This document shows, in pieces, positions 23,201-46,451 of a stretch of DNA of 64,000 nucleotides (within the stretch, counting starts at the first letter, position 1; each line of letters begins with the position of its first letter). The stretch comes from Alphaproteobacteria bacterium LSUCC0684. GTDB lineage: Bacteria > Pseudomonadota > Alphaproteobacteria > Puniceispirillales > UBA1172. Made by a program: the position numbers and the translations under genes. Below the pieces are notes generated by a model. The model worked only from the letters and a program-made list of their open reading frames with translations, had not been told where the DNA came from and ran no database searches. The stretch is taken from positions 62,001 to 126,000 of the forward strand of contig CP166130.1 of assembly GCA_041228335.1 (NCBI GenBank). The letters are read 5' to 3'.

Positions 23201-23662
23201 GTGGCGCGACTGATGACGTCGGTTGCGTTCACCCGCAGGTTGAAAGATGAGTTCGGATCATCAATTAAGGTGAATTATCATCTGGCGCCGCCACTGATGG
23301 GGTGGCTGCGGTATCGCGATGGAACACCGAGGAAAATACGCGTCGGCTCCTGGATGACAGGTGTCTTTCATGTTCTTGCACGGATGAAAGGCTTGCGGGG
23401 GACGAGGCTCGATCCCTTTGGCCTCACCAGAGAACGCCGCCGTGAGCGGGCCTTCCGTGAGCGGGTGATTTCCCTGATATCGGCGGCAGCTTCGTCACTG
23501 TCGCCGGGGCAGGCGACAAGGTTTGAAGAACTGCTTGAGATCGTGCTGACCGTCCGGGGATATGGTCATGTCAAACTGGCCACCATGGATGCCGCCGAAC
23601 AGCAGCTTGATCAATGGAGCCGGAGCACGCATGCACCAACCGAGTCTCGTCGGGTATCGTAA
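20237..23662 (+). CDS. indolepyruvate ferredoxin oxidoreductase, alpha-beta fusion
   Basis: The 1141-residue protein combines the IorA (thiamine diphosphate) and IorB (gamma domain) parts of indolepyruvate ferredoxin oxidoreductase. It decarboxylates arylpyruvates, or branched keto acids, to acyl-CoA with reduction of ferredoxin. It has an N-terminal pyrimidine-binding domain (VSGYPGSPLGGLDLEL), a TPP-binding region (PYYCAGCPHNSS, then ILYNDAVAMTGGQ), a small ferredoxin-like cluster site (NEAVCEGCGDCAVKSNC near residue 620) and a C-terminal gamma domain (FLAGIGGTGVSTLSAVL). The fused form is common in aerobic proteobacteria. It sits 24 bases upstream of doeA and is probably cotranscribed with it. 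A ferredoxin-NADP reductase gene lies 2.2 kb downstream. Confidence 0.92.
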   Translation: MGISLHDCYTSNSGPALISGTQALVRLLLEQARMDREAGLNTRGLVSGYPGSPLGGLDLELARSRRYLDEEGIVFQPAVNEELAATALWGSQHIGLYDHGLYDGVFGLWYGKGPGLDRSVDALRHANQGGVAPKGGMVIAVGDDPTGKSSTLAYQSDQTFVAMGMPYFFPRRVEDIIPMGLQAFALSRHAGTCIGLKIVIDTADANVVLDMGSIRPVISTPEDAGPVHVGRHDPAIRREERLHEARLPAVLNWQKKNPVNIPITSLPDRGKLGIVAVGKAVTETREALHMLGLDDPSEKGIGVLSVAMPWPVEPAAMLDFVRRFDEILVIEEKRSLLEDQLAHLLINQSSRPKLSGKTSPDGEALIPAYGELSLEGVAGTIFKRAEAHNISLQPVEAAAEFGNLPHVASRTPYYCAGCPHNSSTKLPGGAVTGMGIGCHSISGFLTPDTITNFTQMGGEGAFWIGRAPFSDLDHTFQNLGDGTYTHSGYLAIRAAIGAGVNMTFKILYNDAVAMTGGQNAQGGSSPDEIARQITAEGAVAVVVVSDDPEAIKKTGNWPSGTGFHHRRDIVSVQEDLARIKGVTGLIYVQTCAAELRRRRKRGRIPDRPERLIINEAVCEGCGDCAVKSNCVAVKPVIHPEGIKKQIDQTVCNMDYSCREGFCPSFVSVTGGGGAAIPHVSPDLPPGDDLPSPPLPGEGIRNIFLAGIGGTGVSTLSAVLVMAGRIEGISAQAVNQTGLSQKNGGVTSQVRMSRRERLDERMVRLPARSTDLLIGCDAVVAAGDMVLKSLHPKRSHAIISARIDPVGVDGVGAGHVVDDSLLLARLGAVMDTSRITHFDTAGLCERLLGRATSANVMLLGAALQGGFLPVSPASLEEALRLNGVEIESNLKALSWGRWLMVDPERVLKAAGMIGGAEKPLLDQMPAPDAIAYFTDQLTRYQDQNYARHYREIMRKIHADIDRITQKDDRLARKAARAVFRVMHIKDEYEVARLMTSVAFTRRLKDEFGSSIKVNYHLAPPLMGWLRYRDGTPRKIRVGSWMTGVFHVLARMKGLRGTRLDPFGLTRERRRERAFRERVISLISAAASSLSPGQATRFEELLEIVLTVRGYGHVKLATMDAAEQQLDQWSRSTHAPTESRRVS

Positions 23663-23686
23663 TTTTTTCATGTGCAGGAGTTAAGA

Positions 23687-24874
23687 ATGATCTCACCCAC
23701 GTTATATTTTTCCATCGCCGAATATGAGGCGAGGCTGGCGCGCACCAGATCTGCCATGGAAAAGCAGGGACTAAGCCTGCTGATCGTCAGTGACCCGTCG
23801 AATATGGCCTGGCTGACCGGGTATGACGGCTGGTCCTTCTACGTGCATCAATGTGTTCTGCTTGGTCTTGAGGGCGAGCCGTACTGGTTCGGGCGGGGGC
23901 AGGATGCGAACGGGGCACTCCGGACCTGTTTCATGAACCCGGACCGGATCATCGGGTATGAAGATCATTACGTTCAGTCCACCGAACGTCACCCGATGGA
24001 TTATCTTGCCCGGATTCTTGAAGACCAGGGCCATGCCGCGGCCAAGATCGGGGTGGAAATGGATAATTACTGGTTCAGCGCGGCGGCATATCAGGCCTTG
24101 ACGCGGCATCTGCCCAATGCCCGCTTTGCCGATGCCACGGGGCTGGTGAACTGGCAACGGGCGGTCAAGTCCGAGCAGGAACTCACCTATATGCGGCAAG
24201 CCGGACGCCTTGTCGGCAAGATGCATCAGCGCATCGCCGAAACCGTCGAGCCCGGGCTGAGGAAATGTGACCTGGTTGCCGAAATCTACGATGCCGGTCT
24301 CAGGTATGATGCAGATCTGGGCCATGGCGGGGATTATCCGGCGATTGTACCGCTTCTGCCTTCAGGCAGTGATGCCGCCGCCCCGCACCTGACCTGGGAT
24401 GACCAGCCGATGAAACCCGGTGAGGGCACGTTCTTTGAAATTGCCGGCGTCATGCACCGCTATCACTGCCCGCTGTCGCGCACGGTGTTTCTGGGCAAGC
24501 CGCCAGCAGATATGCTTGAGGCGGAAAAAGCCGTTCTTGAAGGGATGGAGGCCGGACTTGAAGAAGCGCGTGCCGGGCGGCGATGCGCGGATATCGCCCG
24601 CGCGTTTTTCGGCACATTGCGGCGCTACGGGATTGAGAAGAACAACCGGGCAGGCTACCCGATCGGCCTTTCCTACCCACCGGATTGGGGCGAGCGCACC
24701 ATGTCGATCCGCGATACCGATGAAAGCGTGCTTGAGCCCGGCATGACCTTTCATTTCATGACCGGTCTCTGGATGGAAAACTGGGGGCTTGAGATTACCG
24801 AAAGCATCGTCATCACCGATGGTGCACCGGAATGCCTGGCTGAAGTGCCGCGCCAGCTGCTGATAAAAGGATAG
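23687..24874 (+). CDS. doeA: ectoine hydrolase (DoeA/EutD-like)
   Basis: DoeA opens the ring of ectoine to N-acetyl-diaminobutyrate isomers, the first step of ectoine use as carbon and nitrogen source. The protein (395 residues from this start) has the M24 creatinase fold. It also carries segments typical of DoeA: SDPSNMAWLTGYDGWSFYVH, DHYVQSTERHPMD, GVEMDNYWFSAAAY, EIAGVMHRYHCPLSRTVFLG and YPIGLSYPPDWGERTM. The metal-ligand pattern of ordinary Xaa-Pro peptidases is changed, as expected for this group. The start at 23687 is favoured over a GTG at 23672 because CAGGAG (23675-23680) lies six bases before the ATG. It is followed five bases later by doeB. Confidence 0.88.
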   Translation: MISPTLYFSIAEYEARLARTRSAMEKQGLSLLIVSDPSNMAWLTGYDGWSFYVHQCVLLGLEGEPYWFGRGQDANGALRTCFMNPDRIIGYEDHYVQSTERHPMDYLARILEDQGHAAAKIGVEMDNYWFSAAAYQALTRHLPNARFADATGLVNWQRAVKSEQELTYMRQAGRLVGKMHQRIAETVEPGLRKCDLVAEIYDAGLRYDADLGHGGDYPAIVPLLPSGSDAAAPHLTWDDQPMKPGEGTFFEIAGVMHRYHCPLSRTVFLGKPPADMLEAEKAVLEGMEAGLEEARAGRRCADIARAFFGTLRRYGIEKNNRAGYPIGLSYPPDWGERTMSIRDTDESVLEPGMTFHFMTGLWMENWGLEITESIVITDGAPECLAEVPRQLLIKG

Positions 24875-24879
24875 GTAAG

Positions 24880-25875
24880 ATGAAACCAAGCCCGATTGCC
24901 GCGACCATTCCCTTTGATGAAGATGGCTGTCATCACGGATATCTGCGTCTGCCCCATAGCCGGGATGCATCTGCCTGGGGGAATCTGATGATACCGATCA
25001 CCGTGATCCGAAACGGCGATGGACCGACAGCGTTATTCACCGGCGCTAATCATGGCGATGAATATCAGGGCCCGGTGGCGATACAGAATCTCGCCGCCAG
25101 TCTTGAGCCCGGCATGATCCATGGGCGCGTCATCCTGATCCCTTATATGAACTATCCGGCGTTTCGGGCAGGGCGACGGACATCGCCCATAGATGGCGGC
25201 AACATGAACCGGATTTTCCCCGGCGCGCCTGACGGCACGGTGACGGCGAAGATTGCCGACTATTTTGACCGGACACTCGTTCCCATGGCCGATATCGTGC
25301 TTGATTATCATTCCGGTGGCAAAACCCTCGATTTTATTCCCTTCGCGGCGTGCCACCGGCTTCCGGACAAGGACCTTGAGGCCAGATCCACCGAAGCCAT
25401 GATGGCCTTTAATGCCCCATATTCCATGACCATGCTGGAGATCGACAATGTTGGCATGTACGACACGGCGGTGGAAGAGAAGGGCAAGGTCTTCGTGACA
25501 ACCGAATTGAGTGGTGGCGGCACAATCACGGCGGAAACGGCACGAATTGCGATCAAAGGTGCCCGCAATCTTCTGATCCATGCGGGTATTCTGGAAGGCG
25601 AGCTTGTTGTCGAGAAAACCCGTATTCTTGATATGCCGGACGCGGAATGTTTTGCTTTCGCCGAAACAGAAGGGATGATCGAACCCATGGTTGATCTGGG
25701 CGAGCCTGTCAGAAAAGGTGAGCCGCTGGCCCGTATCTGGCCCCTGGACAGGACAGGCATCCAACCACAGATCATTACCGCCCGGCGTGACGGGATGCTG
25801 GCTGCCCGGCATTTTCCGGGGCTTGTTGAAATGGGAGATTGTCTTGCGGTGGTGGCGGTGACAGACGACGCCTAG
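24880..25875 (+). CDS. doeB: N-acetyl-L-2,4-diaminobutyrate deacetylase (DoeB/EutE-like)
   Basis: DoeB removes the acetyl group from N-alpha-acetyl-diaminobutyrate made by ectoine hydrolase. The 331-residue protein belongs to the succinylglutamate desuccinylase/aspartoacylase (M14-like) zinc enzymes. The zinc site is visible as the His and Glu in FTGANHGDEYQGP (about residues 50-58) and the later histidine in IVLDYHSGG. The C-terminal part forms the usual beta-barrel with FAFAETEGMIEPMVDLGEPV. The tight spacing after doeA supports the pathway. The further genes doeC and doeD (to aspartate) are not in this window. Confidence 0.88.
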   Translation: MKPSPIAATIPFDEDGCHHGYLRLPHSRDASAWGNLMIPITVIRNGDGPTALFTGANHGDEYQGPVAIQNLAASLEPGMIHGRVILIPYMNYPAFRAGRRTSPIDGGNMNRIFPGAPDGTVTAKIADYFDRTLVPMADIVLDYHSGGKTLDFIPFAACHRLPDKDLEARSTEAMMAFNAPYSMTMLEIDNVGMYDTAVEEKGKVFVTTELSGGGTITAETARIAIKGARNLLIHAGILEGELVVEKTRILDMPDAECFAFAETEGMIEPMVDLGEPVRKGEPLARIWPLDRTGIQPQIITARRDGMLAARHFPGLVEMGDCLAVVAVTDDA

Positions 25876-27716: not shown

Positions 27717-28571
27717 TCAGGACAATCCCATGATAGCACCGTATGTTTCAGGGCGCCGGTCCCTGAAAAGGCCCCAGGCGGCGCGTTCCCTGCGCATGGC
27801 AGCAAAGTCAAAATCAGCAACCGCCACCACATCTTCCCGGCCCTCGCAGCCAGCCACAACAAGGCCGGTGCCATCGGCGATGAAGGATTGGCCATACCAC
27901 TCCATGGTTGTGCCGGCGACCTCTTCTGTGCCAATTCGGTTGCTGGCGGCAAGTGCCACCATATTCGCGGCGGCATGGCCCTGCATTGCCCGCTGCCAAT
28001 GACCGGATGAGTTATAACCCGGGCTTCGCGGCTCACTGCCGATCGCCGTTGGATAGAGAAGCAGATCCGCCCCCATGATGGCCATGGATCTGGCGGCCTC
28101 CGGGAACCATTGATCCCAGCAGATGCCAACCCCGATGCGTCCGAAGGCCGTATCCCAGACACGAAAGCCGAGATCGCCAGGGCTGAAGAAAAACTTTTCT
28201 TCATATCCCGGCCCCTGGGGGATGTGGGTTTTGCGGTAAATACCCATTTCTTCCCCGTCGGCATCGATCATCATCACCGAATTGAAATAGGCGTTGTTTG
28301 ATTTCTCGAAAAAACTGATCGGGCAGACGACGCCAAGTTCCTTTGCCAGTGAGGCAAATCGGCCGAGGAAAGGATGCCCCCGGGCTTCATGGGCGTAGTC
28401 AAAATAACGCGGGTCCTGATCAGGGCAGAAATACACATTGGCGAAAAGCTCCTGCAGAAGAATGATCTCCCCCCCTTCTGCGGCGGCTTTGCGAACCATG
28501 GCTTCCGCCTTGTCTAGGTTTGCCGCCTGATCCCAGGAGCAGGTCATCTGCGTGATTGCAACCCTTGTCAT
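27717..28571 (-). CDS. aguB: N-carbamoylputrescine amidohydrolase
   Basis: The 284-residue nitrilase-superfamily enzyme is predicted to hydrolyse N-carbamoylputrescine to putrescine, ammonia and CO2, the last step of the agmatine route. The catalytic triad is visible: Glu41 in LLQELFANVYFCP, Lys114 in YRKTHIPQGPGY and Cys151 in GVGICWDQWFPEAAR. The segments ELFANVYFC, KTHIPQGPGYEEKFFF and CWDQWFPE are those of AguB enzymes. No agmatine deiminase (aguA) is present in the window. The start overlaps the stop of the upstream gene by one base (TAATG), so it is the last gene of the long minus-strand polyamine operon. Confidence 0.92.
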   Translation of the reverse strand: MTRVAITQMTCSWDQAANLDKAEAMVRKAAAEGGEIILLQELFANVYFCPDQDPRYFDYAHEARGHPFLGRFASLAKELGVVCPISFFEKSNNAYFNSVMMIDADGEEMGIYRKTHIPQGPGYEEKFFFSPGDLGFRVWDTAFGRIGVGICWDQWFPEAARSMAIMGADLLLYPTAIGSEPRSPGYNSSGHWQRAMQGHAAANMVALAASNRIGTEEVAGTTMEWYGQSFIADGTGLVVAGCEGREDVVAVADFDFAAMRRERAAWGLFRDRRPETYGAIMGLS

Positions 28572-29605
28572 TATGCGTCTTTCATCCCTTTGAGGAGGTT
28601 AACCGTATTCACGCCGACTTCGCTGACGGCATAGCCGCCTTCCATCACCACCTGCATGGGCAGACCGAGGCTGGCAATGCGGCGCCCCATATCGATATAA
28701 TCATTCGAGGTAAGTTTGAAGAAACTGATCGGGTCGCCTTCGAATGTATCTGCCCCGAAGGAAACGATCAGGGCATCAGGGGCAAAGCCGGCGATCCTGG
28801 CAAGGGCATCATCGAGCGCTTCGGACCAGACGGCATAGGGTGTGCCTGGCGCCATCGGGTAGTTTCTGTTGAACCCGTCGCCCGGGCCTTTTCCTGTTTC
28901 GTTTTCATGACCGAGGAAATACGGGAAGGCTTCAAATGGATCTCCATGCAGCGACAGGAAGAACACGTCCGGGCGGTCATAAAAAATAGCCTGCGTGCCA
29001 TTGCCATGATGGAAATCGACATCCAGGATGGCGACTTTTGCCGCGCCTTCATCACGCATATGCTGGGCTGCAATGGCTGCATTGTTGAAAAAGCAATAGC
29101 CTCCATATTGATCTTTTGAGGCGTGATGCCCTGGCGGACGGCAGAGCGAGAAAATGGATCTGGTCTCCCCGCGACTTATTCTGGATGCGCCGGTCAGCGC
29201 AACCTGTGCTGAAGCATAGGCCGCTTCGGCGGTACCAGCGGAAATGGAGGTTTCACTGGCCAGGGTGTAATAGCCTATCTTGCCATCGATGAATGATGGA
29301 ATATGCGGCGATGGCATGGAGCGAGAAGGCCAGGACGTGGCGATTGCCTCGCCCTTGAACCCGGCCTCGAGCCATTCCTGCCAGCAGGTTTCGATGAAGT
29401 TTACAAATCCCTCGTCATGGATGGCGGTGATTGGCGCCCGGCCGAAATCTTCCGGTTCTTCTATTTTCCCAAGACCTGTTTCCTTGAGCGCATCAAGGAT
29501 GAAATCCATGCGCTCCGGGCATTCAAAAGGGGGCAGTAATTCGCCACCGTAAAGTTCTGTTGTTGATGCTCGAAGACGATGTTTTTCCGTGTAGATGGTA
29601 TCCAT
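28571..29605 (-). CDS. acetylpolyamine amidohydrolase-like (HDAC superfamily)
   Basis: The 344-residue zinc hydrolase of the arginase/deacetylase fold is close in length and motifs to bacterial acetylpolyamine amidohydrolase, which deacetylates acetylputrescine and acetylspermidine. The family signatures are CRPPGHHAS (general-base histidines 160-161), GYCFFNNAAIAA, and the zinc ligands Asp197 and His199 in ILDVDFHHGNGTQ, with the third aspartate in SFGADTFEGDP. A strong AAGGAGG precedes the start. It sits between the flavoprotein dehydrogenase and aguB in one operon with a polyamine-type importer, which supports a small-amine substrate. Hydrolysis of another N-acyl amine remains possible. 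Confidence 0.88.
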   Translation of the reverse strand: MDTIYTEKHRLRASTTELYGGELLPPFECPERMDFILDALKETGLGKIEEPEDFGRAPITAIHDEGFVNFIETCWQEWLEAGFKGEAIATSWPSRSMPSPHIPSFIDGKIGYYTLASETSISAGTAEAAYASAQVALTGASRISRGETRSIFSLCRPPGHHASKDQYGGYCFFNNAAIAAQHMRDEGAAKVAILDVDFHHGNGTQAIFYDRPDVFFLSLHGDPFEAFPYFLGHENETGKGPGDGFNRNYPMAPGTPYAVWSEALDDALARIAGFAPDALIVSFGADTFEGDPISFFKLTSNDYIDMGRRIASLGLPMQVVMEGGYAVSEVGVNTVNLLKGMKDA

Positions 29606-29628: not shown

Positions 29629-31716
29629 TCAGTCTTCAAGTCCGGCAATCTCGCGCCGGAAGCATGGCTCATCACCCGGAGGCGTTTCATCCAGTTCCAT
29701 GGCGTAGCGGTGCCCGGCATAGGTGGCCCAGGCAATCGGGGCGGGCGAGGCGGCATCCCCGATCAGCTGGATTGACCTGATACCGGCACTTTCCCATTCC
29801 GCGTCTCGTCGCCTGAGGTCCTGCCATAGTCCGTCATTGCCGTCACGGGCCGTCACCAGCACCGCTGCATCGGCGGCGATGGGCTCTTCACGGCCGGAAT
29901 AACTGCACGCCGTCACGATATGATCCCCGGCAATGGCATTGACCCGCCGTGACGTCACGCAAGCAATTTCCATTTCGATCAGGCGGCGCTGGATAAAACC
30001 CTGCTCAAGGGTATTTGCCGTCCATTCCGACACACAGTTTGCCGGCGTTACCAGGGTGACGGTGGATCCCATTTGGCGGAGCAGTTCCGCCATCACTCCG
30101 CCCATGTAGTAGTGATCATCATCATAGATCACCACATGGCCTGCGGGCATCCTGCCTTCCATGATGTCATCAGGGGTGAAGACCGGCATCTCGGGGCTGA
30201 TCGGGATCGGCCTGAGATGGGCCCGGGCGGTGCCGTCGCGCCGCCAGGTTGATCCGGTGGCAATGCAGACATGTTCAAAGCCGAAGGACAGCACATCATC
30301 GGCGCCAAGCTGGCTTTCGCGGTAGATCGACACATTGGCAAGAGGCTCGATCTGCCCGAGCCGGTAATCCATCACCCGCCCCCAGGCGGAAAGATTTGGC
30401 AGCAGGCGTTCCTTTGCCACCCTGCCACCAAGCTCGCGCGTTGCCTCGGCCAACGCCACCTCATATCCACGTCCGCCAAGAATGCGAGCCGCTTCAAGCC
30501 CGGCCGGACCTGAGCCGATCACCAGCACGGACTGGCTGTCGCCTTTCGCGGGTTTGTTTTCCGGGTGCCAGCCCTTGCGCCATTCTTCCATGAATGTCGG
30601 ATTCTGGGTGCAGCGTGAGATCGACATTGTCATGTCGCCGGTCACGCATATATTGCAGCCGATGCACTCCCGGATATCTTCAATCCGGTTCGCCTTGACC
30701 TTGTTGGGCAGGAACGGGTCGGCGATGGATGGGCGGGCTGCGCCGATGAAATCGAGAATACCGGCGTTGATCTGCCGGACCATCGCATCCGGTGAAGTGA
30801 AGCGCCCGACCCCGACAACCGGCCGCGATGTCAGCGCCTTGATGCCGCGGATCAACTCTTCCTGGGCCCCTTCATCCTTGAAGCGGGACGTGCCCGAACA
30901 GTCTTCCCAGGTGCCATGGGCAAGATCCCAGAGATCCGGCACCTCCCCGTTCATTTCAATACAGTCGCGAAGCTCGCTGTTGGAAAAGCTCAGCTCATCG
31001 AAGGCCTCATCCAGTGAAAGCCTGATGGTAATCCCCATCGTATCGCCCACCGCATCACGGATATCGGCCACCACTTCACGCATAAAGCGGCTCCGGTTTT
31101 CAAGACTGCCACCATATTCATCGTCGCGCTTGTTGGTGGTGCGCGAAAGAAAATGCTGGATAATACCAAAGCCATGCGCCCCATAAAGGCAGATCAGATC
31201 ATAGCCGCAATCACGGGCCCGCCGGGCCGCGTTGACATACCAGCGGCGGACATCCCTTATCTCCTCTTTTTCAAGACTGCGAGCGCTCACCGGGTCCGAA
31301 GTGAAGGTGAGGATCGGCCCGCCGGTGGCCGCAAGAGGCACTTCCTTGCTATAGAGATTGGGGCCATTGATCCCGGAATAGGCCAGTTCAATTCCAGCCA
31401 GCGCATCATGGCTTTTGATCGCCTCGGCCATTCGGGCCAGCATGGGCATATCCTTGTCTTCCCAGAGACGCAGTTCGATGAAGGGCGTGATCTCGCTTGT
31501 CTGGTGGATCTCCACCTGTTCGGTGAAGACCACGCCCCAGCCGCCTTCAGCCTTGACGCGGCGCATCTCCGCCACCGCAGAAGGGTCACGATAACCGCCG
31601 CCATTGCAATGCGGCACCTGATAGAATCTGTTTTTGGCGGTGACCGGTCCGATGGCCATGGGCTCAAACAAAATGTCATAGCGGCTGCTGGTGGTTGAAG
31701 TCATATCATCGGGCAT
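29629..31716 (-). CDS. TMADH-fold amine dehydrogenase (6-S-cysteinyl-FMN, 4Fe-4S), histamine-dehydrogenase-like active site
   Basis: The 695-residue protein has the full layout of trimethylamine dehydrogenase: an old-yellow-enzyme barrel (1-340), a 4Fe-4S site with Cys351, Cys354, Cys357 and Cys369, and a pyridine-nucleotide-reductase-like half with VLVIGSGPAGLEAARIL. The FMN-linking cysteine is kept (Cys37 in QVPHCNGGG), as are Tyr178 and His181 in LYGAHG. The residues that form the trimethylamine bowl are altered. By my alignment from memory, Tyr60 becomes Gln67, Trp264 is kept as Trp270 and Trp355 becomes Asp361. This is the set I recall for histamine dehydrogenase, which oxidises primary amines. 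It probably deaminates an amine and passes electrons to an ETF. The start has AGAGGA five bases upstream. The gene lies in the polyamine operon. Confidence 0.85.
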   Translation of the reverse strand: MPDDMTSTTSSRYDILFEPMAIGPVTAKNRFYQVPHCNGGGYRDPSAVAEMRRVKAEGGWGVVFTEQVEIHQTSEITPFIELRLWEDKDMPMLARMAEAIKSHDALAGIELAYSGINGPNLYSKEVPLAATGGPILTFTSDPVSARSLEKEEIRDVRRWYVNAARRARDCGYDLICLYGAHGFGIIQHFLSRTTNKRDDEYGGSLENRSRFMREVVADIRDAVGDTMGITIRLSLDEAFDELSFSNSELRDCIEMNGEVPDLWDLAHGTWEDCSGTSRFKDEGAQEELIRGIKALTSRPVVGVGRFTSPDAMVRQINAGILDFIGAARPSIADPFLPNKVKANRIEDIRECIGCNICVTGDMTMSISRCTQNPTFMEEWRKGWHPENKPAKGDSQSVLVIGSGPAGLEAARILGGRGYEVALAEATRELGGRVAKERLLPNLSAWGRVMDYRLGQIEPLANVSIYRESQLGADDVLSFGFEHVCIATGSTWRRDGTARAHLRPIPISPEMPVFTPDDIMEGRMPAGHVVIYDDDHYYMGGVMAELLRQMGSTVTLVTPANCVSEWTANTLEQGFIQRRLIEMEIACVTSRRVNAIAGDHIVTACSYSGREEPIAADAAVLVTARDGNDGLWQDLRRRDAEWESAGIRSIQLIGDAASPAPIAWATYAGHRYAMELDETPPGDEPCFRREIAGLED

Positions 31717-31742: not shown

Positions 31743-33170
31743 CTAGGGGCGGAAACCTGCTGCAATACGTTCAAGCGGTGGAGTCCAGGGTATCAGCGCT
31801 TCCAGCATCTCGCCAATGTTCAGGACAAGATTGTCGGCAAATCGGTGGCCGATGATCTGAATAGCTGTCGGCAGGCCATTGGCGGTCAGACCAGATGGCA
31901 CGGAAAGCGCCGGGCATTGACCGATGGAGTTAAAGAGACAGGTCATGTCAAGACCCTTGAGCCTCCCATCCGGCCCCAGATGCGTGTAGTCGCTTTCGCT
32001 GGCGTCAAGCGGCGGGGCGGGCAGCGCCATGGTCGGGCAGAGCAACGCATCATACCCGGCCATGGCTTTCACGAAACCGTGCCACTGGCGGGTGCGTACC
32101 TCGTCAATGCGCCGGAAAGTGACCGCAGGCATGGCACGGCCACGATCAACAAGCGCCAGAAATTCAGGGTCCATCCGGTCACGATGTTCATCCAGAAGAT
32201 CATCGACGGCCGCTGCCAGATAGACACACCAGTAGTCATACCAGGCATCGACCATCGACGCGGACCAGCCGAGATCGACATGTTCAACCCTGACCCCTGC
32301 CCGGGCCAGCGCATCCACGGCCCTGGCAAAATTTGCGGCAACTTCAGCATCGACGTCAAACATCCCGAGATCCGGAGAGACGGCAAGCTTTAACCGGGAA
32401 GGGTCGAGCTGCCGCTGTTCAAATCCGGCAAGGTCAGGCTGGCTCAGAATATCGCGATCATCGGGGCCTGCGGTTACGTCCATGAAGAGGCGGATATCGG
32501 CGATGGACCGCGCAAGCGGGCCGAAATGAGAGATCGTATCAAAGACGGTTGGCAGAATATCCATGGGTATCCGCCCAAGGCTGGGTTTTAAGCCGGCAAC
32601 GCCGCAGAGTGCGGCCGGGATACGTACCGAGCCGCCCATGTCGGTGCCTTCGGCAATCGGCACGCAGCCCGTGGCCACCGCCACCGCCGCCCCGCCCGAA
32701 GAGCCGCCGCAGGTGCGTTCCCGATCAAACGGATTGCGCGTATGCCCGAAAAGAGGGGAGCGGGTGAAGCTTGAATGGGCAAATTCCGGGGTGGTGGTGC
32801 GGGCAACGATAATCGCCCCTGCCTGTTCCAGCCGATCCACGAGGATCGGATTTTCATCCTCAATCTGACCTGTGAGAGCAGCAGAACCCCGGGTTGTAAG
32901 CCTGCCCTTGAGCGGGGTGAATTCCTTGATCGCCACAGGCACGCCTTCAAGGCGGCGGCGGGGCTGGCCGGCGTTCAGACGTGCGGTCACCTCTCTTGAT
33001 TTCGCCATCGCCTCTTCTGTGTAAATGGCGGTAAAGGGATTAAGGCTTTCCTGAACACGCTGGCAGCGCCCGAGGCATTCTTCCATCACGCTTTCCGCGC
33101 TGATGCGGCCATCGGCAATGCCGCCGGCAATGGCGGCAGCTGAAAAAGGGAGAGGTGCTGTGTCTTTCAT
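31743..33170 (-). CDS. amidase (amidase signature family)
   Basis: The 475-residue enzyme has the Ser-cisSer-Lys machinery of amidase-signature hydrolases: the lysine in PVAIKEFTPLKG (near residue 82), the glycine/serine loop TCGGSSGGAAVAVATG and the nucleophile region GTDMGGSVRIPAALCG. It cleaves an unknown amide, possibly releasing an amine or a carbamoyl or acyl group from the compound brought in by the adjacent transporter. The ATG at 33170 follows TTG in frame and has no good Shine-Dalgarno sequence. A perfect hairpin separates it from the binding-protein gene. A second, more NylA-like amidase lies at 44997. Confidence 0.9.
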   Translation of the reverse strand: MKDTAPLPFSAAAIAGGIADGRISAESVMEECLGRCQRVQESLNPFTAIYTEEAMAKSREVTARLNAGQPRRRLEGVPVAIKEFTPLKGRLTTRGSAALTGQIEDENPILVDRLEQAGAIIVARTTTPEFAHSSFTRSPLFGHTRNPFDRERTCGGSSGGAAVAVATGCVPIAEGTDMGGSVRIPAALCGVAGLKPSLGRIPMDILPTVFDTISHFGPLARSIADIRLFMDVTAGPDDRDILSQPDLAGFEQRQLDPSRLKLAVSPDLGMFDVDAEVAANFARAVDALARAGVRVEHVDLGWSASMVDAWYDYWCVYLAAAVDDLLDEHRDRMDPEFLALVDRGRAMPAVTFRRIDEVRTRQWHGFVKAMAGYDALLCPTMALPAPPLDASESDYTHLGPDGRLKGLDMTCLFNSIGQCPALSVPSGLTANGLPTAIQIIGHRFADNLVLNIGEMLEALIPWTPPLERIAAGFRP

Positions 33171-33182
33171 CAATCGAAAGAT

Positions 33183-33221: not shown

Positions 33222-34253
33222 TTATTTTTTCAGCTGTGTCCAGATCGCGTCATAGAGCGCCTGGGTCTGCTGGTCACACACTTCGACAAAAACACCAGCC
33301 GGCGCATCCGCTGGCGGGTTGTTTTCACGTGCGGTGGCAAGTTCAGGGTCGAGGAATGGCCCCACACCTTTGACGCCAGCGGCATAGCGGGCGTAATTGG
33401 TGACAGCGGCAGCGTTTTCAGGTTCAAGCAGGAAATCCATGAACTTGATTGCCGCCGCCCGGTTCGGCGCATCCTTGAGCAGTACGACATTATCCATCCA
33501 GACGATATAGCCCTCTTTCGGATAGGCGTATTTAAGGGAAGCTTTTTCCGCGCGGGCTTTGGCGCCGAAGCCGTTCCATATCATGCCGGCGCTGGCATCG
33601 CCGGAGACGAGCACATCCTTGGCGCCATCGGAATTGAACGATGCCCAATCCACCTTTGCTTTTTCAAGCATGGCGCTGAGCGCCTTGAGCTGGGACTTGT
33701 CGGTGCTGCACTGCGGGATACCCATATGGATCGATGCAAAAGTGATCGTCTCCCCGGCGGTATCAAGGACGTTGATCTTGCCCTTGAGTTCAGCTGGCGG
33801 GTTGAAGATGATATCGGTGGTATCGATATTGCCGCCATAGATATTGGTGTCGACGGAAAAGCTGGTTGATCCCCACTGATACGGGATTGAGTGCTTGCGG
33901 CCCTGATCGAAATCCACGTTCTTCCAGTTGGGTTCGATATTGTCGAAATGCTTCAACTCCGACGGGGCGAATGTATCCAGCATGCCTTCGTTGATCATGA
34001 TCTTGACCATGTAATCACCTGGCACGGCGACATCGTAACTGCCCATCCCGCCGGCTTTCAGGTTGGATAACATGGCTTCGTTGGAATCATAGGTATCCAT
34101 TACCACTTCGATGCCGGTTTCAGCCGTGAACTTGTTCAGCAACTCCTGGGGAATGTATTCAAACCAGTGATAGACCGAAAGTTTTTCAGCGGCGGCAGGT
34201 GCCGCGATGGCGGTCAGCGCAACCGCAGCAATCAATGATGTAAATCTGCGCAT
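33222..34253 (-). CDS. polyamine-type ABC transporter substrate-binding protein (first system)
   Basis: The 343-residue periplasmic protein carries a classic signal peptide (RRFTSLIAAVALTAIAAPAAA, cut near residue 22) and belongs to the PotD/PotF binding-protein family: SVYHWFEYIPQELLNKF at the start of the mature chain, TGIEVVMDTYDSNEAMLSNL, and YDVAVPGDYMV. It would deliver a cationic polyamine or related compound to the permeases encoded just upstream. The ligand cannot be fixed from sequence. A strong AGGAGG precedes the ATG. Three inverted repeats lie in the spacer before it, which may raise its transcript level over the permease genes, a common need for binding proteins. Confidence 0.92.
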   Translation of the reverse strand: MRRFTSLIAAVALTAIAAPAAAEKLSVYHWFEYIPQELLNKFTAETGIEVVMDTYDSNEAMLSNLKAGGMGSYDVAVPGDYMVKIMINEGMLDTFAPSELKHFDNIEPNWKNVDFDQGRKHSIPYQWGSTSFSVDTNIYGGNIDTTDIIFNPPAELKGKINVLDTAGETITFASIHMGIPQCSTDKSQLKALSAMLEKAKVDWASFNSDGAKDVLVSGDASAGMIWNGFGAKARAEKASLKYAYPKEGYIVWMDNVVLLKDAPNRAAAIKFMDFLLEPENAAAVTNYARYAAGVKGVGPFLDPELATARENNPPADAPAGVFVEVCDQQTQALYDAIWTQLKK

Positions 34254-34361: not shown

Positions 34362-35171
34362 CTATTTCTCACGGCCGATCCGGCTGATCAGATAGGACAC
34401 CGATACCAACAGAAAAGATACAAGCAGCATGAGTGTCGAAATCGCCATGATATTTGGCTTGATGCCCTGTTTCACGGCCCCGAAAATAGCTGTCGGCAGG
34501 GTTTCCACCCCGGCCCCTTTGACAAAATTCGTGATGATGAAATCGTCAAGCGAGATGATAAAGGCCAAAAGGAAGCCGGAAAGAATGCCCGGCACCATCA
34601 GCGGCAGCAGTATCAGCCTGAAGGTCTCAGCCGGGGTGGCATAGAGATCCCGCGCCGCCTGTTCGTAGATGCTTGTGATCCCCTGAAGCCTGGCGGCAAT
34701 CGGCAAATAGGCAAACGGGATACAGAAAACTATATGCGCCAGCAGAATGCTCAGCACCCCGCGATCGAAACCGATCGCCGAAAAGAAGATCAGCGTTGCC
34801 ACGGCGGTGACAATCTCCGGCACCATCAGCGGCAGATTAATGAGGCCAAAGGTCAGCGCCTTACCCCTGAAAACCCGCCCCCTGACCATGGCCAGCGCTG
34901 CCATCGTGGCAATGATTGTTGAGATGATGGCCGCCATCACGGCGATGATGAGCGAGTTTACCGTTGCTTTTTTAAACTTGCCAGCCTCCAGCCCGAAGAA
35001 GACGTCTTCATACCAGACAAGGCTGAAGCCGCCCCAGATGGTAATCGATGGTGAGTTGTTGAAGGAATAAATCATCACGATAATCAGCGGCGCATAGAGG
35101 ATGATCAGGCAGGCGAGGGTGATCTCTCGGAAGCCGGGATAAAAGCGAACGGATTTGCCCTTTCTCTCCAT
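34362..35171 (-). CDS. polyamine-type ABC transporter permease (PotC/PotI-like, first system)
   Basis: The roughly 269-residue inner-membrane protein has six predicted membrane helices. It carries the binding-protein-dependent permease loop that docks with the ATPase ([25 protein letters not shown], about residues 185-205). [20 protein letters not shown] at the N-terminus is usual for PotC/PotI. The start at 35171 is preferred over an upstream in-frame ATG because AGGAG lies about six bases before it and it follows the potB-like stop by one base. It pairs with the PotB/PotH-like permease to form the channel. Confidence 0.92.
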
Positions 35172-35172
35172 G

Positions 35173-36108
35173 TCAGCTCCTGCCCTGATTGCTTTGCGTC
35201 TGCTGGCGGGCATAGAACAGCAGGATGATCATGATGATTGTCAGCAGGATCATTGAGACCGCCGCGCCAAACGGCCAGTCTCCGGCCTGGCCCTTGAATT
35301 GCTCCTCGACGAGCGAGCCGATCATGAAGTTCTTTGCACCGCCCAGAAGATCCGGTGCCAGAAAGGCGCCAAGAGACGGGATGAAGACAAGGATGCAGCC
35401 AGCAACAATGCCGGGCCTGACCGAGGGGATCACCACCTTGAACAAGGTCGTCCAGCGCCCGGTATAGAGATCAGCCGCCGCTTCGGAGAGAACGAAATTA
35501 TACCGTTCGATTGACGCATAGACAGGCAGCACCATGAACGGCAGATAGGAATAAAAAAGCCCAAGCTGGATGGCGAAAGCGGTATTGATCATGCGGATGG
35601 GATCATCGATAAGACCAAGGGCCACCAGCCATTCATTGATGGGGCCGGTATCGCGGATGAGGAATTTCATCGAGACCGTGCGGATGAGCAGATTAACCCA
35701 GTAGGGAATCGTTACCAGAAAAAGCAGCATGGAGCGCAGTTGCGGTGGCTGGGTGGCGATAAAATAGGCAGTCGGGAAACCGATCAAGAGGCAGAAGATC
35801 ATGGCAAAGAGCGCCTGCAGGAAGGATCGCCAGAAGATCAGGATATAGGTCCACTCGATCGTCGGCGGCTCATCACCGAAAAGCCCCCGGTCAAGAAAGA
35901 ACTGGTCATAGGCATCAAGGGTGAATTCCCAGATGACGCCGCCACGGAAATCCTGCGTCAGGAAGGAATAGACCAGCATGATCAGCACAGGAACAACCAG
36001 CAGCAACCCGATCACCAGCCAGGCCGGGAACAGAAGCGCCTTCTGGCGGCCGTCGACAATCGAGCCTTCGGCCTTTGTCGATTGCTGATTGGAAATCATC
36101 CCCGCCAT
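35173..36108 (-). CDS. polyamine-type ABC transporter permease (PotB/PotH-like, first system)
   Basis: This 311-residue membrane protein is the first permease of the importer. It shows the N-terminal helix ([22 protein letters not shown]), the periplasmic loop with DQFFLD, and the ATPase-docking loop [21 protein letters not shown] followed by [21 protein letters not shown]. Six helices are expected. Start and stop overlaps (TAATG with the ATPase gene, one base to the next permease) show tight translational coupling in the operon. Confidence 0.93.
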
Positions 36109-37235
36109 TATTTTGCCAGAACCCTGATGGAACTGTCGGGGAAATCAACATGCACGGCATCCCCTACCTTTAGTTCAGCCGTATCACCTGATACATTCTG
36201 TATCCGTGCCAGCACAGGCTGGCCCTTGTCCAGCGCGATATGATACTGGGTGTCGGTGCCAAGATAAGACATATCCTCAATCCTGCCGCGTGACCCGCTT
36301 GAGGGGGTTTTGCCTCTTGCCGGCCGGATGCTGATCTGTTCCGGGCGGATCATGAAAGACACGTCTTCCGGCCCGGCAATCTTGCGGCCGAGATCAATTT
36401 TCTTTTCCTTCCAGCCATTGAACATCAGCCTGGCCGTGGTGCCGCGCCCTGGCTCGGCCACCGCGTCGATGATATTGGCTTCACCGATGAAATTGGCGAC
36501 AAAGTTATTCACCGGGTTGTTGTAGATATCCTGCGGCGTGCCGATCTGCTGAACCTTGCCGTTGCTCATCACCGCGATGCGGTCGGACATGGCCAGCGCT
36601 TCTTCCTGATCATGGGTGACAAAGACGAAGGTGATGCCGGTCTGCTTCTGAATGGCCTTGAGCTCTTCCCGCATTGCCTGCCTCAGTTTGAGATCAAGTG
36701 CCGAAAGCGGCTCATCGAGAAGCAGCACCTTCGGGGCTGGTGCCAGCGCCCGGGCCAGCGCAACCCGTTGCTGCTGCCCGCCGGAAAGTTCGTGCGGCCG
36801 GCGGTCAGCGAAGTCCACCATCCGGATCAGCTCAAGCATGGCCCGGGCACGCGAGATGATCTCATCACTGGTCTGGCCCAACCGCTTGAGGCCAAAGGCG
36901 ACGTTTTCATAAACGCTGAGATGGGGGAAAAGGGCATATTGCTGAAAGACAGTATTGACGGGCCGCTGGTGCGGGGCAAGGGTGCTGATGTCATCTCCAT
37001 AGAGAAGCACCTGGCCTTTGGTGATATCCTCAAACCCGGCGATGATTCGCAAAAGAGTTGTCTTGCCGCATCCCGATGGCCCGAGTAGGGTGAAGAATTC
37101 ACTGTCGCGTATGTCGAAACTTACCGCGTCCAGTGCGGTGACTGGCTGGTGCCGGTGCGGGTATATTTTGGAAACCGATACGATATCAACCGCTGTTCTG
37201 GACACTATCCCTTCCCCCGCTGCACCTTTATTCAT
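36108..37235 (-). CDS. polyamine-type ABC transporter ATPase (PotA/PotG-like, first system)
   Basis: The 375-residue cytoplasmic ATPase powers the importer and opens the operon. It has Walker [15 protein letters not shown] (about residues 54-67), the ABC signature [15 protein letters not shown], Walker [14 protein letters not shown] and the switch histidine in [16 protein letters not shown]-terminal TOBE domain (from about 270) includes ISIRPARGK. The gene is divergent from an aldehyde dehydrogenase gene across a 193-base spacer that holds two inverted repeats. A second ATPase of the same type is at 42455. Confidence 0.94.
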   Translation of the reverse strand: MNKGAAGEGIVSRTAVDIVSVSKIYPHRHQPVTALDAVSFDIRDSEFFTLLGPSGCGKTTLLRIIAGFEDITKGQVLLYGDDISTLAPHQRPVNTVFQQYALFPHLSVYENVAFGLKRLGQTSDEIISRARAMLELIRMVDFADRRPHELSGGQQQRVALARALAPAPKVLLLDEPLSALDLKLRQAMREELKAIQKQTGITFVFVTHDQEEALAMSDRIAVMSNGKVQQIGTPQDIYNNPVNNFVANFIGEANIIDAVAEPGRGTTARLMFNGWKEKKIDLGRKIAGPEDVSFMIRPEQISIRPARGKTPSSGSRGRIEDMSYLGTDTQYHIALDKGQPVLARIQNVSGDTAELKVGDAVHVDFPDSSIRVLAK

Positions 37236-37428: not shown

Positions 37429-38919
37429 ATGCCTGTACACAGCCTGAAGGAATGGAATGACCTTGCCGCCGGCCTGAGGCCGAAAGGGCAGTTGCTGATC
37501 GATGGCCGATTTGAAGACGCTGCTTCGGGCAAGACGTTTGCCAGCATCAACCCGGCAACAGGTGAGGTGATTGCCGATGTGGCCGAAGGCGATACTGCTG
37601 ATATCGACCGCGCGGTTATTTCGGCCCGGAACGCGTTTGAAAGCGGGCGGTGGTCCGAAGAGACGCCGATGAACCGCAAGGCGGTGCTGCTCCGGCTGGC
37701 TGAACTGATCCGTTCCAGCCTTGATGAGCTGGCCCTGCTTGACAGTATCGACATGGGCAAGCCGGTGGAAGATGCGGCGGCGATCGATGTGCCTGGCTCG
37801 GCCCTCTTCTTTCAGTGGTATGCCGAAGCCATCGACAAGATCTATGACGAGGTTGCTCCCACCGGCCCTGGTGATCTCGCGCTCATCACCCGCGAGCCGC
37901 TCGGGGTGATCGGTGCGGTGGTGCCGTGGAATTTTCCGCTTGATATGGCAACCTGGAAAGCATCGGCGGCGCTGGCTGCGGGGAATTCCATCGTGCTGAA
38001 ACCGGCAGAACAGTCACCCCTGTCGGCGTTGCGGCTTGCTGAACTCGCCTTGGAAGCCGGGTTGCCGGAAGGGGTGTTCAATGTTGTTCCCGGATATGGG
38101 GAAACCGCAGGGCAGGCGCTCGGGCTTCATCCTGATGTGGATTGCCTCGCGTTCACGGGCTCAACCCCGGTGGGCAAACTGTTCCAGCAATATGCGGGCC
38201 AGTCGAACATGAAGCAGGTCTGGCTTGAAACCGGCGGCAAGAGCCCGAATCTGGTTTTTGAAGATTGCGCTGATCTGGATGCGACAGCGGATATGGCCGC
38301 GCTGGGCATTTTCTTCAATCAGGGGGAGGTCTGCTCCGCCAATTCACGTCTTCTGGTCGAACGATCGATCCATGCCGAATTTGTCAAGAAGATCAAGGAG
38401 CGTGCCAAATCCTATCAGCCGGGCAACCCGCTTGACCCCTCCTCGCGGATGGGCGCGATTGTAAGCCAGGAGCAGCATGAACGGATTGTCAGCATGATCG
38501 AGCTTGGCAAAAAAGACGCGGACTGCATCATCGGCGGAAACGCGGTCAAGATCGACAATCGCGGTCTCTATATCGAGCCGACCATCTTTGACAATGTGGC
38601 GCCGCGCGCAGATATCGCCCGGGATGAGATTTTCGGCCCCGTGCTCTCGGTCATTCCGTTTGACAGCGAAGAGGAAGCCGTGTCGATTGCCAACGATACG
38701 ATATATGGCCTTGCGGCGTCTCTCTGGACGGGGAATCTGTCCCGCGCGCACCGGGTATCACGCCAGTTGAGGGCCGGAACGGTTTCGGTCAACACCGTTG
38801 ATGCGCTCAGCCCGATGACGCCTTTTGGCGGGTTCAAGCAGTCCGGTATCGGCCGTGATCTGTCATTGCACGCGCTGGATAAATACACCGCACTCAAGAC
38901 AACCTGGATCAAGTATTAG
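37429..38919 (+). CDS. aldehyde dehydrogenase, PuuC/gamma-aminobutyraldehyde type
   Basis: The 496-residue NAD(P)-dependent aldehyde dehydrogenase has the catalytic Cys302 in FFNQGEVCSANSRLL, the general base Glu267 in LETGGKSPNLV, and the nucleotide-binding VVPWNFPLDMATWK and FTGSTPVGK motifs. The overall type is that of enzymes acting on gamma-glutamyl-aminobutyraldehyde, 4-aminobutyraldehyde or 3-hydroxypropionaldehyde. Its position opposite the polyamine importer operon suggests that it oxidises the aldehyde left after amine oxidation, giving a GABA-like acid. A putrescine aminotransferase or glutamylputrescine pathway is absent from the window. Confidence 0.9.
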   Translation: MPVHSLKEWNDLAAGLRPKGQLLIDGRFEDAASGKTFASINPATGEVIADVAEGDTADIDRAVISARNAFESGRWSEETPMNRKAVLLRLAELIRSSLDELALLDSIDMGKPVEDAAAIDVPGSALFFQWYAEAIDKIYDEVAPTGPGDLALITREPLGVIGAVVPWNFPLDMATWKASAALAAGNSIVLKPAEQSPLSALRLAELALEAGLPEGVFNVVPGYGETAGQALGLHPDVDCLAFTGSTPVGKLFQQYAGQSNMKQVWLETGGKSPNLVFEDCADLDATADMAALGIFFNQGEVCSANSRLLVERSIHAEFVKKIKERAKSYQPGNPLDPSSRMGAIVSQEQHERIVSMIELGKKDADCIIGGNAVKIDNRGLYIEPTIFDNVAPRADIARDEIFGPVLSVIPFDSEEEAVSIANDTIYGLAASLWTGNLSRAHRVSRQLRAGTVSVNTVDALSPMTPFGGFKQSGIGRDLSLHALDKYTALKTTWIKY

Positions 38920-40714: not shown

Positions 40715-41515
40715 TCAGTATTTCTTGCGTGTGAACAGGAAGAATACCGTCACGACGAGAAGTGAAATTGCCAGCAGAATGCTTGAAATGGCATTGATTT
40801 CCGGGGTGATGGTGCGCCGAAGCTGCCCCAGCATATAGGTGGGCAAAGTATCCTGGCCCGGGGTTTTCACAAACTCGGTAATGATCACATCATCAAGGGA
40901 AATGACGAAGGCAAGCATGGCACCTGCCATTATTCCCGGCCAGAGCAAGGGCAGGGTAACCCGGCGAAACACCATGGAGGGCCGGGCATAGAGATCGCTT
41001 GCGGCGGTTTCAAGGCTGAGGTTCATGCCATCAAGCCTTGCCTTGATCGGCAGATAGGCAAAAGGAATACAGAAAGCGGCATGCGCTGCGATCAGATACC
41101 CGAGGCCGAAATAGTTGGTGAAATTCTTGATAATGGCGAAGAAAATCAGCAAGGCGACCGCGGTGACGATTTCAGGCACCATCAGGGGCTGGTTGATCAG
41201 GATGAATATGATCTGCTGCCCTTTGAAGGGCTGGGTCCGTGTTGTGCCAAGCGCGGCCATGGTCGCCAGAAAAGTTGAAATGACGGAAGCACATATGGCA
41301 ATGATGACCGAACGCATGGCGGCTTCCTGAACAAGCTGGTTCTCGCTTGCCTCGATATACCAGCGGAGCGAGAAACCTTCCCACAGCATGAGGTTGCTGC
41401 CAGCATTGAATGAATAGAACACCAGCAGCAGAATAGGTGCATAAAGAGCGAAAAAACAGATCAGCGCGATCTGCTTGAAGCCAAACTGATAAGTGACCGA
41501 AAACTCTTTGTTCAT
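40715..41515 (-). CDS. polyamine-type ABC transporter permease (PotC/PotI-like, second system)
   Basis: The permease (266 residues from this start) has six predicted helices and the docking loop AASDLYARPSMVFRRVTLPLLWPGI. It is the second permease of the second importer. The N-terminal FGFKQIALICFFALYAPILL is family-like. The start at 41515 lies ten bases after the upstream stop but has only a weak ribosome-binding sequence. In-frame ATGs at 41533 and 41572 would overlap the upstream gene. It resembles the PotC-like protein at 34362 in layout but is clearly diverged, so the two systems are not a recent duplication. Confidence 0.9.
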   Translation of the reverse strand: MNKEFSVTYQFGFKQIALICFFALYAPILLLVFYSFNAGSNLMLWEGFSLRWYIEASENQLVQEAAMRSVIIAICASVISTFLATMAALGTTRTQPFKGQQIIFILINQPLMVPEIVTAVALLIFFAIIKNFTNYFGLGYLIAAHAAFCIPFAYLPIKARLDGMNLSLETAASDLYARPSMVFRRVTLPLLWPGIMAGAMLAFVISLDDVIITEFVKTPGQDTLPTYMLGQLRRTITPEINAISSILLAISLLVVTVFFLFTRKKY

Positions 41516-41525
41516 ATTCAACCCG

Positions 41526-42449: not shown

Positions 42450-42454
42450 GGATT

Positions 42455-43567: not shown

Positions 43568-43612
43568 AAAAATGATTACCACTGATATCTAATGTTGCGT
43601 TTATCCACAAGT

Positions 43613-43634
43613 ATTCACCCAAGACAGGGTGAAT
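43613..43634. other. intercistronic hairpin between NylB-like and ATPase genes
   Basis: ATTCACCC (43613-43620) and GGGTGAAT (43627-43634) form a perfect eight-base stem with a six-base loop just after the stop of the NylB-like gene. No T-run follows on either strand, so partial termination or transcript stabilisation is more likely than full termination. Confidence 0.5.
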
Positions 43635-43651
43635 TCAAGTGCCAAGTGGTG

Positions 43652-44815: not shown

Positions 44816-44885
44816 TCTGGCAAAGATCTCAGCCGCTGATCCTGCCAGAAGTGATGGGATGCGATCACTGTTTTTATATGATGCT

Positions 44886-44899
44886 GATATTGTAATATC
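44886..44899. promoter_or_regulatory. 14-bp palindrome in the nylB-like/nylA-like divergent spacer
   Basis: GATATT-GT-AATATC is a perfect 6-2-6 inverted repeat in the 181-base AT-rich spacer between the two hydrolase genes. It is a possible operator for the divergent promoters. Its sequence does not match a regulator I recognise. Confidence 0.35.
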
Positions 44900-44931
44900 T
44901 CACGTACCTGTAATAATAAAATTTTGAGCAA

Positions 44932-44946: not shown

Positions 44947-44996
44947 CAACCCAGGATCGGTCAGCCGGTCCTTAACGCCTTTTGAGGAATTTCGCC

Positions 44997-46442: not shown

Positions 46443-46451
46443 CCGCCAGAC

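Follow-up and report, generated by a model that had tools for sequence, protein, structure and literature searches.

The stretch of DNA analysed here (the window) comprises 64,000 nucleotides of Alphaproteobacteria bacterium LSUCC0684, which belongs to the marine SAR116 group, order Puniceispirillales (assembly GCA_041228335.1, contig CP166130.1, positions 62,001 to 126,000 of the forward strand). Its gene at 29629..31716, on the minus strand, codes with an ATG start for a protein of 695 residues, a flavoprotein of the histamine dehydrogenase type with predicted 6-S-cysteinyl-flavin mononucleotide (FMN) and 4Fe-4S cofactors; the original prediction, made from the sequence of the window, had delimited this gene correctly. 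As judged by a search of the PDB, an alignment, a tree and a structural model, the gene product is in all likelihood a histamine dehydrogenase (EC 1.4.9.1) by enzyme identity, and histamine is probably its main physiological substrate in the organism. The best explanation of the whole, which we also hold to be rather probable, is that uptake and deamination of histamine feed a split histamine-to-aspartate pathway in which an HpaB-type oxygenase replaces the HinF monooxygenase of Pseudomonas.

Relatives and fold of the dehydrogenase

When the PDB was searched with phmmer, scores far beyond chance were obtained for the histamine dehydrogenases of Rhizobium sp. 4-9 (6de6, Q60I59; 1074 bits) and Nocardioides simplex (3k30; 832 bits), for 6l6j (675 bits), which by its entry title is a 6-hydroxypseudooxynicotine amine oxidase, and for trimethylamine dehydrogenase (TMADH, 2tmd/1djn; 480 bits). 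Identical residues were found at 460 of 685 aligned pairs with the Rhizobium enzyme (67%), 379 of 678 with the Nocardioides enzyme (56%), 319 of 659 with 6l6j (48%) and 261 of 673 with TMADH (39%). The protein consists of an Old-Yellow-Enzyme barrel and two nucleotide-fold domains (PF00724, PF07992 and PF22620). Among the closest named relatives listed (the best 80 of 590 loci), one from a SAR116 bin reaches 80% identity. A homologue of 27% identity is present elsewhere in the same genome (L002, genome positions 2357401-2359266).

In a maximum-likelihood tree quickly built from 106 rows, several of which have long branches, the window enzyme was found in a clade of 21 rows, nearly all from its own order, and the sister of this clade was one of 77 rows containing 6de6 (support 87 for each). 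The next branch outside was 3k30 (support 98), and 6l6j and TMADH were placed further out. This phylogeny, proposed as a check with the original prediction, groups the window enzyme with the characterised histamine dehydrogenases and leaves the other two enzymes outside. Furthermore, an AlphaFold model built from 30 sequences (predicted local distance difference test, pLDDT, 80.8; weak at residues 350-380), which was used for the fold and not for pocket geometry, gave 6de6 as its best structural match (Z 50.7, root-mean-square deviation 3.1, 670 residues), with 3k30 close at 49.2.

Residues of the active site

Alignment placed the cysteine of 6-S-cysteinyl-FMN at Cys37 and those of the 4Fe-4S cluster at Cys351, Cys354, Cys357 and Cys369. 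These residues, as well as Tyr178, His181, Gln67, Trp270, Asp361 and Cys273, had all been picked out in the original prediction and were confirmed. For the Rhizobium enzyme, the cited passages of PMC10180351 give Gln60, Ile69, Phe72, Glu74, Asn110, Tyr171, His174, Phe176, Arg225, Trp263, Asp265 and Asp354 as binding residues. All 12 counterparts are identical in the window enzyme, namely Gln67, Ile76, Phe79, Glu81, Asn117, Tyr178, His181, Phe183, Arg232, Trp270, Asp272 and Asp361. The likeness to histamine dehydrogenase pointed out in the original prediction was borne out by both the 67% identity to 6de6 and the 12 of 12 pocket residues checked.

Seven of the eight sites listed in the same passages for the Nocardioides enzyme match, Tyr181 there being Phe183 here (PMC10180351). 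In libraries made at Rhizobium Tyr171, Phe176, Trp263, Asp265 and Asp354, active clones carried no substitution, according to these passages; the counterparts of these sites are Tyr178, Phe183, Trp270, Asp272 and Asp361. The Rhizobium enzyme is described there as preferring histamine, with agmatine and 1,3-diaminopropane used at 10% and 13% of the histamine rate (PMC10180351). Its Phe72 tunes histamine versus agmatine.

The Tyr-His-Asp catalytic group is present as Tyr178, His181 and Asp272, as in the Rhizobium enzyme, and the strict place of the TMADH catalytic aspartate is occupied by Cys273. The caution which this cysteine had earlier inspired dissolves, since the W-E-D-C stretch is shared by the Rhizobium enzyme. 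Variation was followed in 92 rows (15 from SAR116 including the window, 60 with histamine-type neighbours and 17 other named ones, a few being mutual duplicates). Because cysteine is found at this place in 92 of 92 rows and in 6de6, whereas more distant homologues have aspartate (nine at 51-60% identity) or glutamate (two paralogues at 45-49%), Cys273 is, on these alignments, a mark of the clade holding the Rhizobium enzyme. Aspartate is also found there in the Nocardioides enzyme (W-E-G-D), 6l6j and TMADH. Pocket variation in the 92 rows was small: Phe79 is replaced by Tyr in five rows, including 3 of the 15 from SAR116, Asp272 by Asn or Glu in three and Phe183 by His in one. A single row among the 60 with histamine-type neighbours differs at the checked pocket sites (Asp272 to Glu).

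TMADH has in common with the window enzyme the fold, the 6-S-cysteinyl-FMN, the 4Fe-4S cluster and the Tyr/His pair, but its aromatic bowl is not kept here. The bowl and the catalytic aspartate of TMADH, which we take to be Tyr60, Trp264, Trp355 and Asp267, read Gln67, Trp270, Asp361 and Cys273 in the window enzyme, with an insertion in the alignment near Trp355. At 39% identity and with this pocket, the contrast with trimethylamine enzymes drawn in the original prediction holds. Similarly, 6l6j shares the fold and the 4Fe-4S cysteines but has another pocket and, in its chain sequence, alanine at the place of the FMN-linking cysteine. From the sequence, the fold, both cofactor sites and the Rhizobium-like pocket residues are clearly recognisable.

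Genes accompanying related dehydrogenases

Among the Pseudomonas histamine genes, the cited passages of PMC8231116 and PMC6467879 describe HinF, a flavin adenine dinucleotide monooxygenase (EC 1.14.13.5), HinL, an enamine deaminase, HinH, HinG, an amidase, HinD, an aldehyde dehydrogenase, and HinK, a LysR regulator; HinFLHG converts imidazole acetate to aspartate (PMC8231116, PMC6467879).

Clustering of the open reading frames around the 80 named dehydrogenase homologues brought out an importer, a LysR regulator, an M20 amidase, a flavin monooxygenase, DUF1028, RidA and an aldehyde dehydrogenase. After 18 loci with less than 20 kb had been dropped, presence was scored with thresholds of our own in the 62 loci with long flanks. 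LysR was found in 56 of these, RidA in 53, the monooxygenase in 51, DUF1028 in 49 and M20 in 48, and in 35 a close homologue of the aldehyde dehydrogenase lay no more than 10 kb away from the dehydrogenase; acetylpolyamine amidohydrolase (APAH) was counted in 7 and AguB in 6. Of the six histamine-type genes (HinF-type monooxygenase, RidA, DUF1028, M20, LysR and aldehyde dehydrogenase), four or more were present in 51 of the 62 loci, that is, in 19 of 20 from Mesorhizobium and 32 of 42 others.

In a sample of the phylum (397 genomes), a HinF-type gene was found on the same contig and within 6 kb in all ten genomes, other than the one studied here, with a dehydrogenase homologue of at least 67% identity, and at 55% identity or more in 29 of 386 other genomes (p 2.7e-11, kinship ignored). 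The ten genomes represent five genera, six of them falling in one genus, and are nearer to five independent cases. The HinF-type genes of this sample were counted manually, giving 39 genomes with 55% identity or more, and the query gene, or one 100% identical to it, is found in G305. The order monooxygenase-RidA-DUF1028-M20, which matches Pseudomonas F-L-H-G, was seen in six genomes of one family in this sample (L171-L176); from their gene content we take these to be Pseudomonas-like. In L171, an omega-aminotransferase and an aldehyde dehydrogenase adjoin the four genes. No link of histamine dehydrogenase to hin genes, nor of SAR116 to histamine, was found in the open-access literature by title and abstract.

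A second locus in the same genome

The genome (2.70 Mb, single contig, listed as 100% complete) contains, about 560 kb from the dehydrogenase, a second locus (L110, genome positions 646000-665999) in which genes for a LysR regulator, an HpaB-family oxygenase, RidA, DUF1028 and M20 are gathered on about 5 kb (at about 652-657 kb). The HpaB-type gene (L110 7442-8977), which was located by following DUF1028, matches PF11794 and PF03241, and TIGR02309 with 222 bits, below the cut-off of 480; the nearest PDB match of its product is 4-hydroxyphenylacetate 3-hydroxylase (161 bits). The other four genes are 70% (RidA), 64% (DUF1028), 63% (M20) and 48% (LysR) identical to genes of the dehydrogenase clusters. 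The LysR protein matched the PDB entries 6m5f and 3fzv with 182 and 179 bits, the next match scoring 86, and the LysR protein of a Mesorhizobium dehydrogenase cluster matched the same entries (194 bits versus 103 for the next). Both entries are labelled 'probable transcriptional regulator' and presumably represent P. aeruginosa HinK. A HinF-type monooxygenase was sought in the genome at E 0.001 without result; at E 1e-20, the same query has matches in 16 of the 136 genomes sampled from the order. Another DUF1028 gene (genome positions 884867-885433) was set aside as a paralogue, being 36% identical to the cluster type.

HpaB and the dehydrogenase occur together in ten genomes of the order, and in six (G001, G004, G005, G129, G130 and G134) the HpaB homologue (79-83% identity) shares a contig with the dehydrogenase and lies at most 6 kb from it. 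In L117 (from G004), the genes follow each other on one strand as PotB-PotC-binding protein-amidase-HpaB-aldehyde dehydrogenase-LysR-dehydrogenase-EamA transporter-APAH-AguB. In L025, HpaB (80%), RidA, DUF1028, LysR, M20 and the dehydrogenase form one group, and the 13.6 kb covered contain no HinF-type gene. In L226 HpaB, LysR, RidA, DUF1028, the dehydrogenase and M20 are on one strand, the importer, APAH and AguB being on the opposite one. The named loci overlap the sampled genomes; L021 and the G129 contig are equal in length (32,078 bases), share the same dehydrogenase and were counted once for the HpaB link. The two loci of the genome studied here thus look like halves of clusters that are whole elsewhere.

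Some neighbouring arrangements were also noted. A Rieske oxygenase and a PhyH-type dioxygenase adjoin M20 in the second locus (L110:11427-13408); the former was considered as a ring hydroxylase and set aside, being 32-35% identical to the Rieske genes of the clusters, which themselves occur in 7 of 62 long-flank loci. In L138 (7145-10077), from the same order, a dehydrogenase paralogue of 42% identity has as its neighbour a PhyH-type oxygenase sharing 49% identity with that of L110, and another amine may be handled there. L134 (from G078) carries HpaB-RidA-Rieske-DUF1028-M20 with a divergent LysR gene and no close dehydrogenase homologue, so that something else must feed the module in that genome.

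Across the 136 genomes of the order, the dehydrogenase was counted at 60% identity or more (13 genomes, with two partial genes; G003 and G126, at 41-49%, were dropped) and the HinF-type monooxygenase at 57% or more (14 genomes; G003 and G118, at 33-37%, were dropped), and DUF1028 and HpaB were found in 27 and 18 genomes, respectively. HpaB or the HinF-type gene was present in 12 of the 13 genomes with the dehydrogenase versus 20 of the 123 without it (p 4.9e-8, kinship ignored), and DUF1028 in 11 of 13 versus 16 of 123. DUF1028 was accompanied by one of the two oxygenases in 26 of 27 genomes. The two oxygenases were found together in none of the 136 genomes, a result which is not significant alone (p 0.21).

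The operon and its importer

In the window, the dehydrogenase is part of a series of eight closely spaced minus-strand genes, in the order PotA, PotB, PotC, binding protein, amidase, dehydrogenase, APAH and AguB-like amidase. The Rhizobium enzyme resembles it in fold, cofactor cysteines, the twelve pocket residues and the W-E-D-C stretch; a SAR116 operon with a Pot-type importer, APAH and AguB is the setting of the window enzyme. The importer consists of an ATP-binding cassette (ABC) ATPase of PotA type (36108..37235, TIGR01187 383 bits, cut-off 355.6), permeases of PotB/PotH type (35173..36108) and PotC/PotI type (34362..35213) and a Pot-type solute-binding protein (33222..34253), which is proposed to bind histamine or primary amines. 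An amidase-signature hydrolase (31743..33173, PF01425) is encoded 26 bp upstream of the dehydrogenase. The APAH gene (28571..29605, minus strand) starts 23 bp downstream of it and codes for 344 residues with a histone deacetylase fold (PF00850 239 bits; 3q9b 465 bits); it is overlapped by a gene for a carbon-nitrogen hydrolase of the AguB type, the N-carbamoylputrescine amidase family (27717..28571, minus strand, TIGR03381 436 bits, cut-off 410). These importer, acetylpolyamine deacetylase-like and N-carbamoylputrescine amidase neighbours had been recognised in the original prediction. Divergent from the operon, on the plus strand, lies an aldehyde dehydrogenase gene (37429..38919), the proposed oxidiser of the aldehyde product, whose nearest NCBIfam model is PuuC (635 bits, below the cut-off of 850).

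No agmatine deiminase (PF04371) turned up in the genome, the same search giving matches in 5 of 14 control genomes. N-carbamoylputrescine thus cannot arise via the usual agmatine route, and the substrate of the AguB-type enzyme is uncertain for this reason.

A binding protein sharing 58% identity or more with that of the window was present in 28 of the 62 long-flank loci. In a sample of the class (299 genomes), four other genomes had a binding protein of at least 66% identity, and in three of these a dehydrogenase lay within about 6 kb, G775 having none (p 1e-4); in G741, which belongs to these three, the dehydrogenase has 57% identity and the surrounding 20 kb contain none of the histamine-type genes. 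Binding proteins at 50-55% (G562, G588 and G648, the last with a dehydrogenase on another contig) were dropped. The importer is thus a frequent companion of the dehydrogenase. By eye, the window binding protein keeps several residues of the PotD amine site, with the roles which we take them to have; this does not tell polyamine from histamine.

Proposed pathway

In the pathway that we propose, the Pot-type ABC importer would bring in histamine and perhaps related amines, and the amidase, APAH and the AguB-like enzyme might free the amine from N-acyl forms, which is a guess. The dehydrogenase would convert histamine to imidazole acetaldehyde by oxidative deamination, passing electrons via FMN and the 4Fe-4S cluster to a carrier, and the divergent aldehyde dehydrogenase would give imidazole-4-acetate. 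At the second locus, the HpaB-type flavin-dependent oxygenase would hydroxylate imidazole acetate in place of HinF, the RidA (HinL-like) and DUF1028 (HinH-like) proteins would help to open and clear the ring and the M20 amidase (HinG-like) would release aspartate, with a HinK-like LysR regulator alongside.

The second locus appears to resemble the Pseudomonas Hin system in its RidA, DUF1028, M20 and LysR genes of matching kinds, and an aldehyde dehydrogenase is common to both systems. The Pseudomonas system differs in that the HinC aminotransferase performs the step given here to the dehydrogenase, the HinA permease stands where we propose an ABC importer, and the HinF monooxygenase appears to be replaced by the HpaB-type enzyme. 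The latter is a plausible, if tentative, candidate for the imidazole-acetate oxygenase. More tentatively still, SAR116 and some other alphaproteobacteria might use a dehydrogenase of TMADH fold for HinC, an HpaB-type reduced-flavin oxygenase for HinF, a dedicated Pot-type histamine importer and APAH/AguB-like release from N-acyl forms.

Several observations weigh against this pathway. Its ring-opening genes are distant from the dehydrogenase in the genome itself (560 kb), and G131, G132 and G133 carry HpaB and the dehydrogenase on separate contigs. We know of no HpaB enzyme with demonstrated activity on imidazole acetate; a HinF-type gene coexists with a more distant HpaB gene (41-64%) in L072, L077 and L084 and with an HpaB fragment in L037, and G118 has HpaB plus the uncounted monooxygenase of 37% identity. 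The labels HinL, HinH and HinG were assigned by gene order and short descriptions, not by Pseudomonas Hin sequences. In 11 of the 62 long-flank loci, no more than three of the six histamine-type genes are present, and nine loci with homologues of 51-60% (L224 and L228-L235) lack HinF-type, RidA, DUF1028 and M20 genes in 16-20 kb; among these, L224 carries a binding protein sharing 74% identity with that of the window. DUF1028 is missing in 2 of the 13 order genomes with the dehydrogenase. Conversely, 21 of the 33 order genomes with part of the ring-opening module have no dehydrogenase, which implies other feeders or other substrates there. APAH and AguB point to polyamines, and the window binding protein is closest to putrescine/spermidine binders. 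In a roseobacter (Ruegeria), potFGHI imports cadaverine, putrescine and spermidine (cited passages of PMC10130141), and a histamine-induced P. aeruginosa binding protein beside hinA bound GABA (gamma-aminobutyric acid) and not histamine (cited passages of PMC8231116). Our confidence in histamine as the main substrate was slightly lowered because of this last result and because the phylum sample is weighted to one genus.

An alternative is a broad salvage of primary amines, in which a single importer and a single dehydrogenase of loose specificity would handle histamine, agmatine, 1,3-diaminopropane and putrescine set free from N-acyl forms, the histamine share alone going on to the second locus. 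L056, L065 and L226 combine APAH and AguB with histamine-type genes, side activities are known in the family (cited passages of PMC10180351), and Phe79, the counterpart of the Rhizobium residue that tunes histamine versus agmatine, is Tyr in 3 of 15 SAR116 rows. However, the pocket is nearly invariant (1 of 60 rows differs) and the window enzyme keeps all its sites, with no sign of widened specificity, which makes such a salvage rather unlikely.

The original prediction had proposed a polyamine or agmatine dehydrogenase. Polyamines would then be taken up by the importer and putrescine set free by APAH and AguB; the dehydrogenase would give 4-aminobutanal or guanidinobutanal, from which GABA or guanidinobutyrate would be made by the PuuC-like aldehyde dehydrogenase. 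The scores of APAH (465 bits to 3q9b) and AguB (above its cut-off), the binding protein nearest to putrescine/spermidine binders, the activity of histamine dehydrogenases on agmatine and diamines (cited passages of PMC10180351) and the non-adjacent ring-opening genes are in keeping with this proposal, and its part concerning the APAH and AguB-like neighbours stands. Polyamines or agmatine as main substrate were not supported, given that no agmatine deiminase was found, a pocket which is that of a histamine-preferring enzyme, the mostly histamine-type cluster partners of close relatives and the RidA, DUF1028, M20 and LysR genes of the second locus; in addition, a second Pot system in the window (40715-47591) means that the importer need not be the polyamine one. 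We therefore consider this explanation unlikely and reject a polyamine-only reading, on the failure to find agmatine deiminase and on the relatives' neighbours; polyamines may still be secondary or joint substrates.

As a last alternative, the gene might code for a dehydrogenase of methylamine or N-methyl amines, or for a different amine oxidase of this fold such as the nicotine-type 6l6j. Fold and cofactors are indeed common to TMADH, 6l6j and the window enzyme, but this alternative is highly improbable, as TMADH (39%, Tyr at the place of Gln67) and 6l6j (48%, Ala in its chain at the FMN-linking cysteine) both fall outside the histamine dehydrogenase clade.

Histamine dehydrogenase has a use in food testing, and its place in a pathway is not stated in the cited passages; the gene neighbourhoods described here supply a testable one. 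A further type of imidazole-acetate oxygenase and an ABC importer for histamine are predicted from them, and they suggest that SAR116, a group of marine bacteria, can use histamine as carbon and nitrogen source. Caution is also called for in annotation, as a histamine system may be concealed where a gene close to such a dehydrogenase is labelled 'polyamine transporter'.

Other genes of the window

Beside the aldehyde dehydrogenase gene, positions 39041-40702 code for an enzyme of the Amidohydro_3 family (295 bits), a possible additional pathway amidase or deformylase. The second Pot-type system which follows (40715-47591) comprises permeases, an ATPase (42455-43582) and a binding protein (46530-47591), with genes for a beta-lactamase-fold protein (43652-44815) and another amidase (44982-46442) interleaved. 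Near the far end of the operon, genes of ectoine degradation are found at 23672-25875, DoeA (ectoine hydrolase) scoring 737 bits (cut-off 613) and DoeB 550 bits (cut-off 403), and a protein of 1141 residues of the indolepyruvate ferredoxin oxidoreductase family is encoded at 20237-23662.

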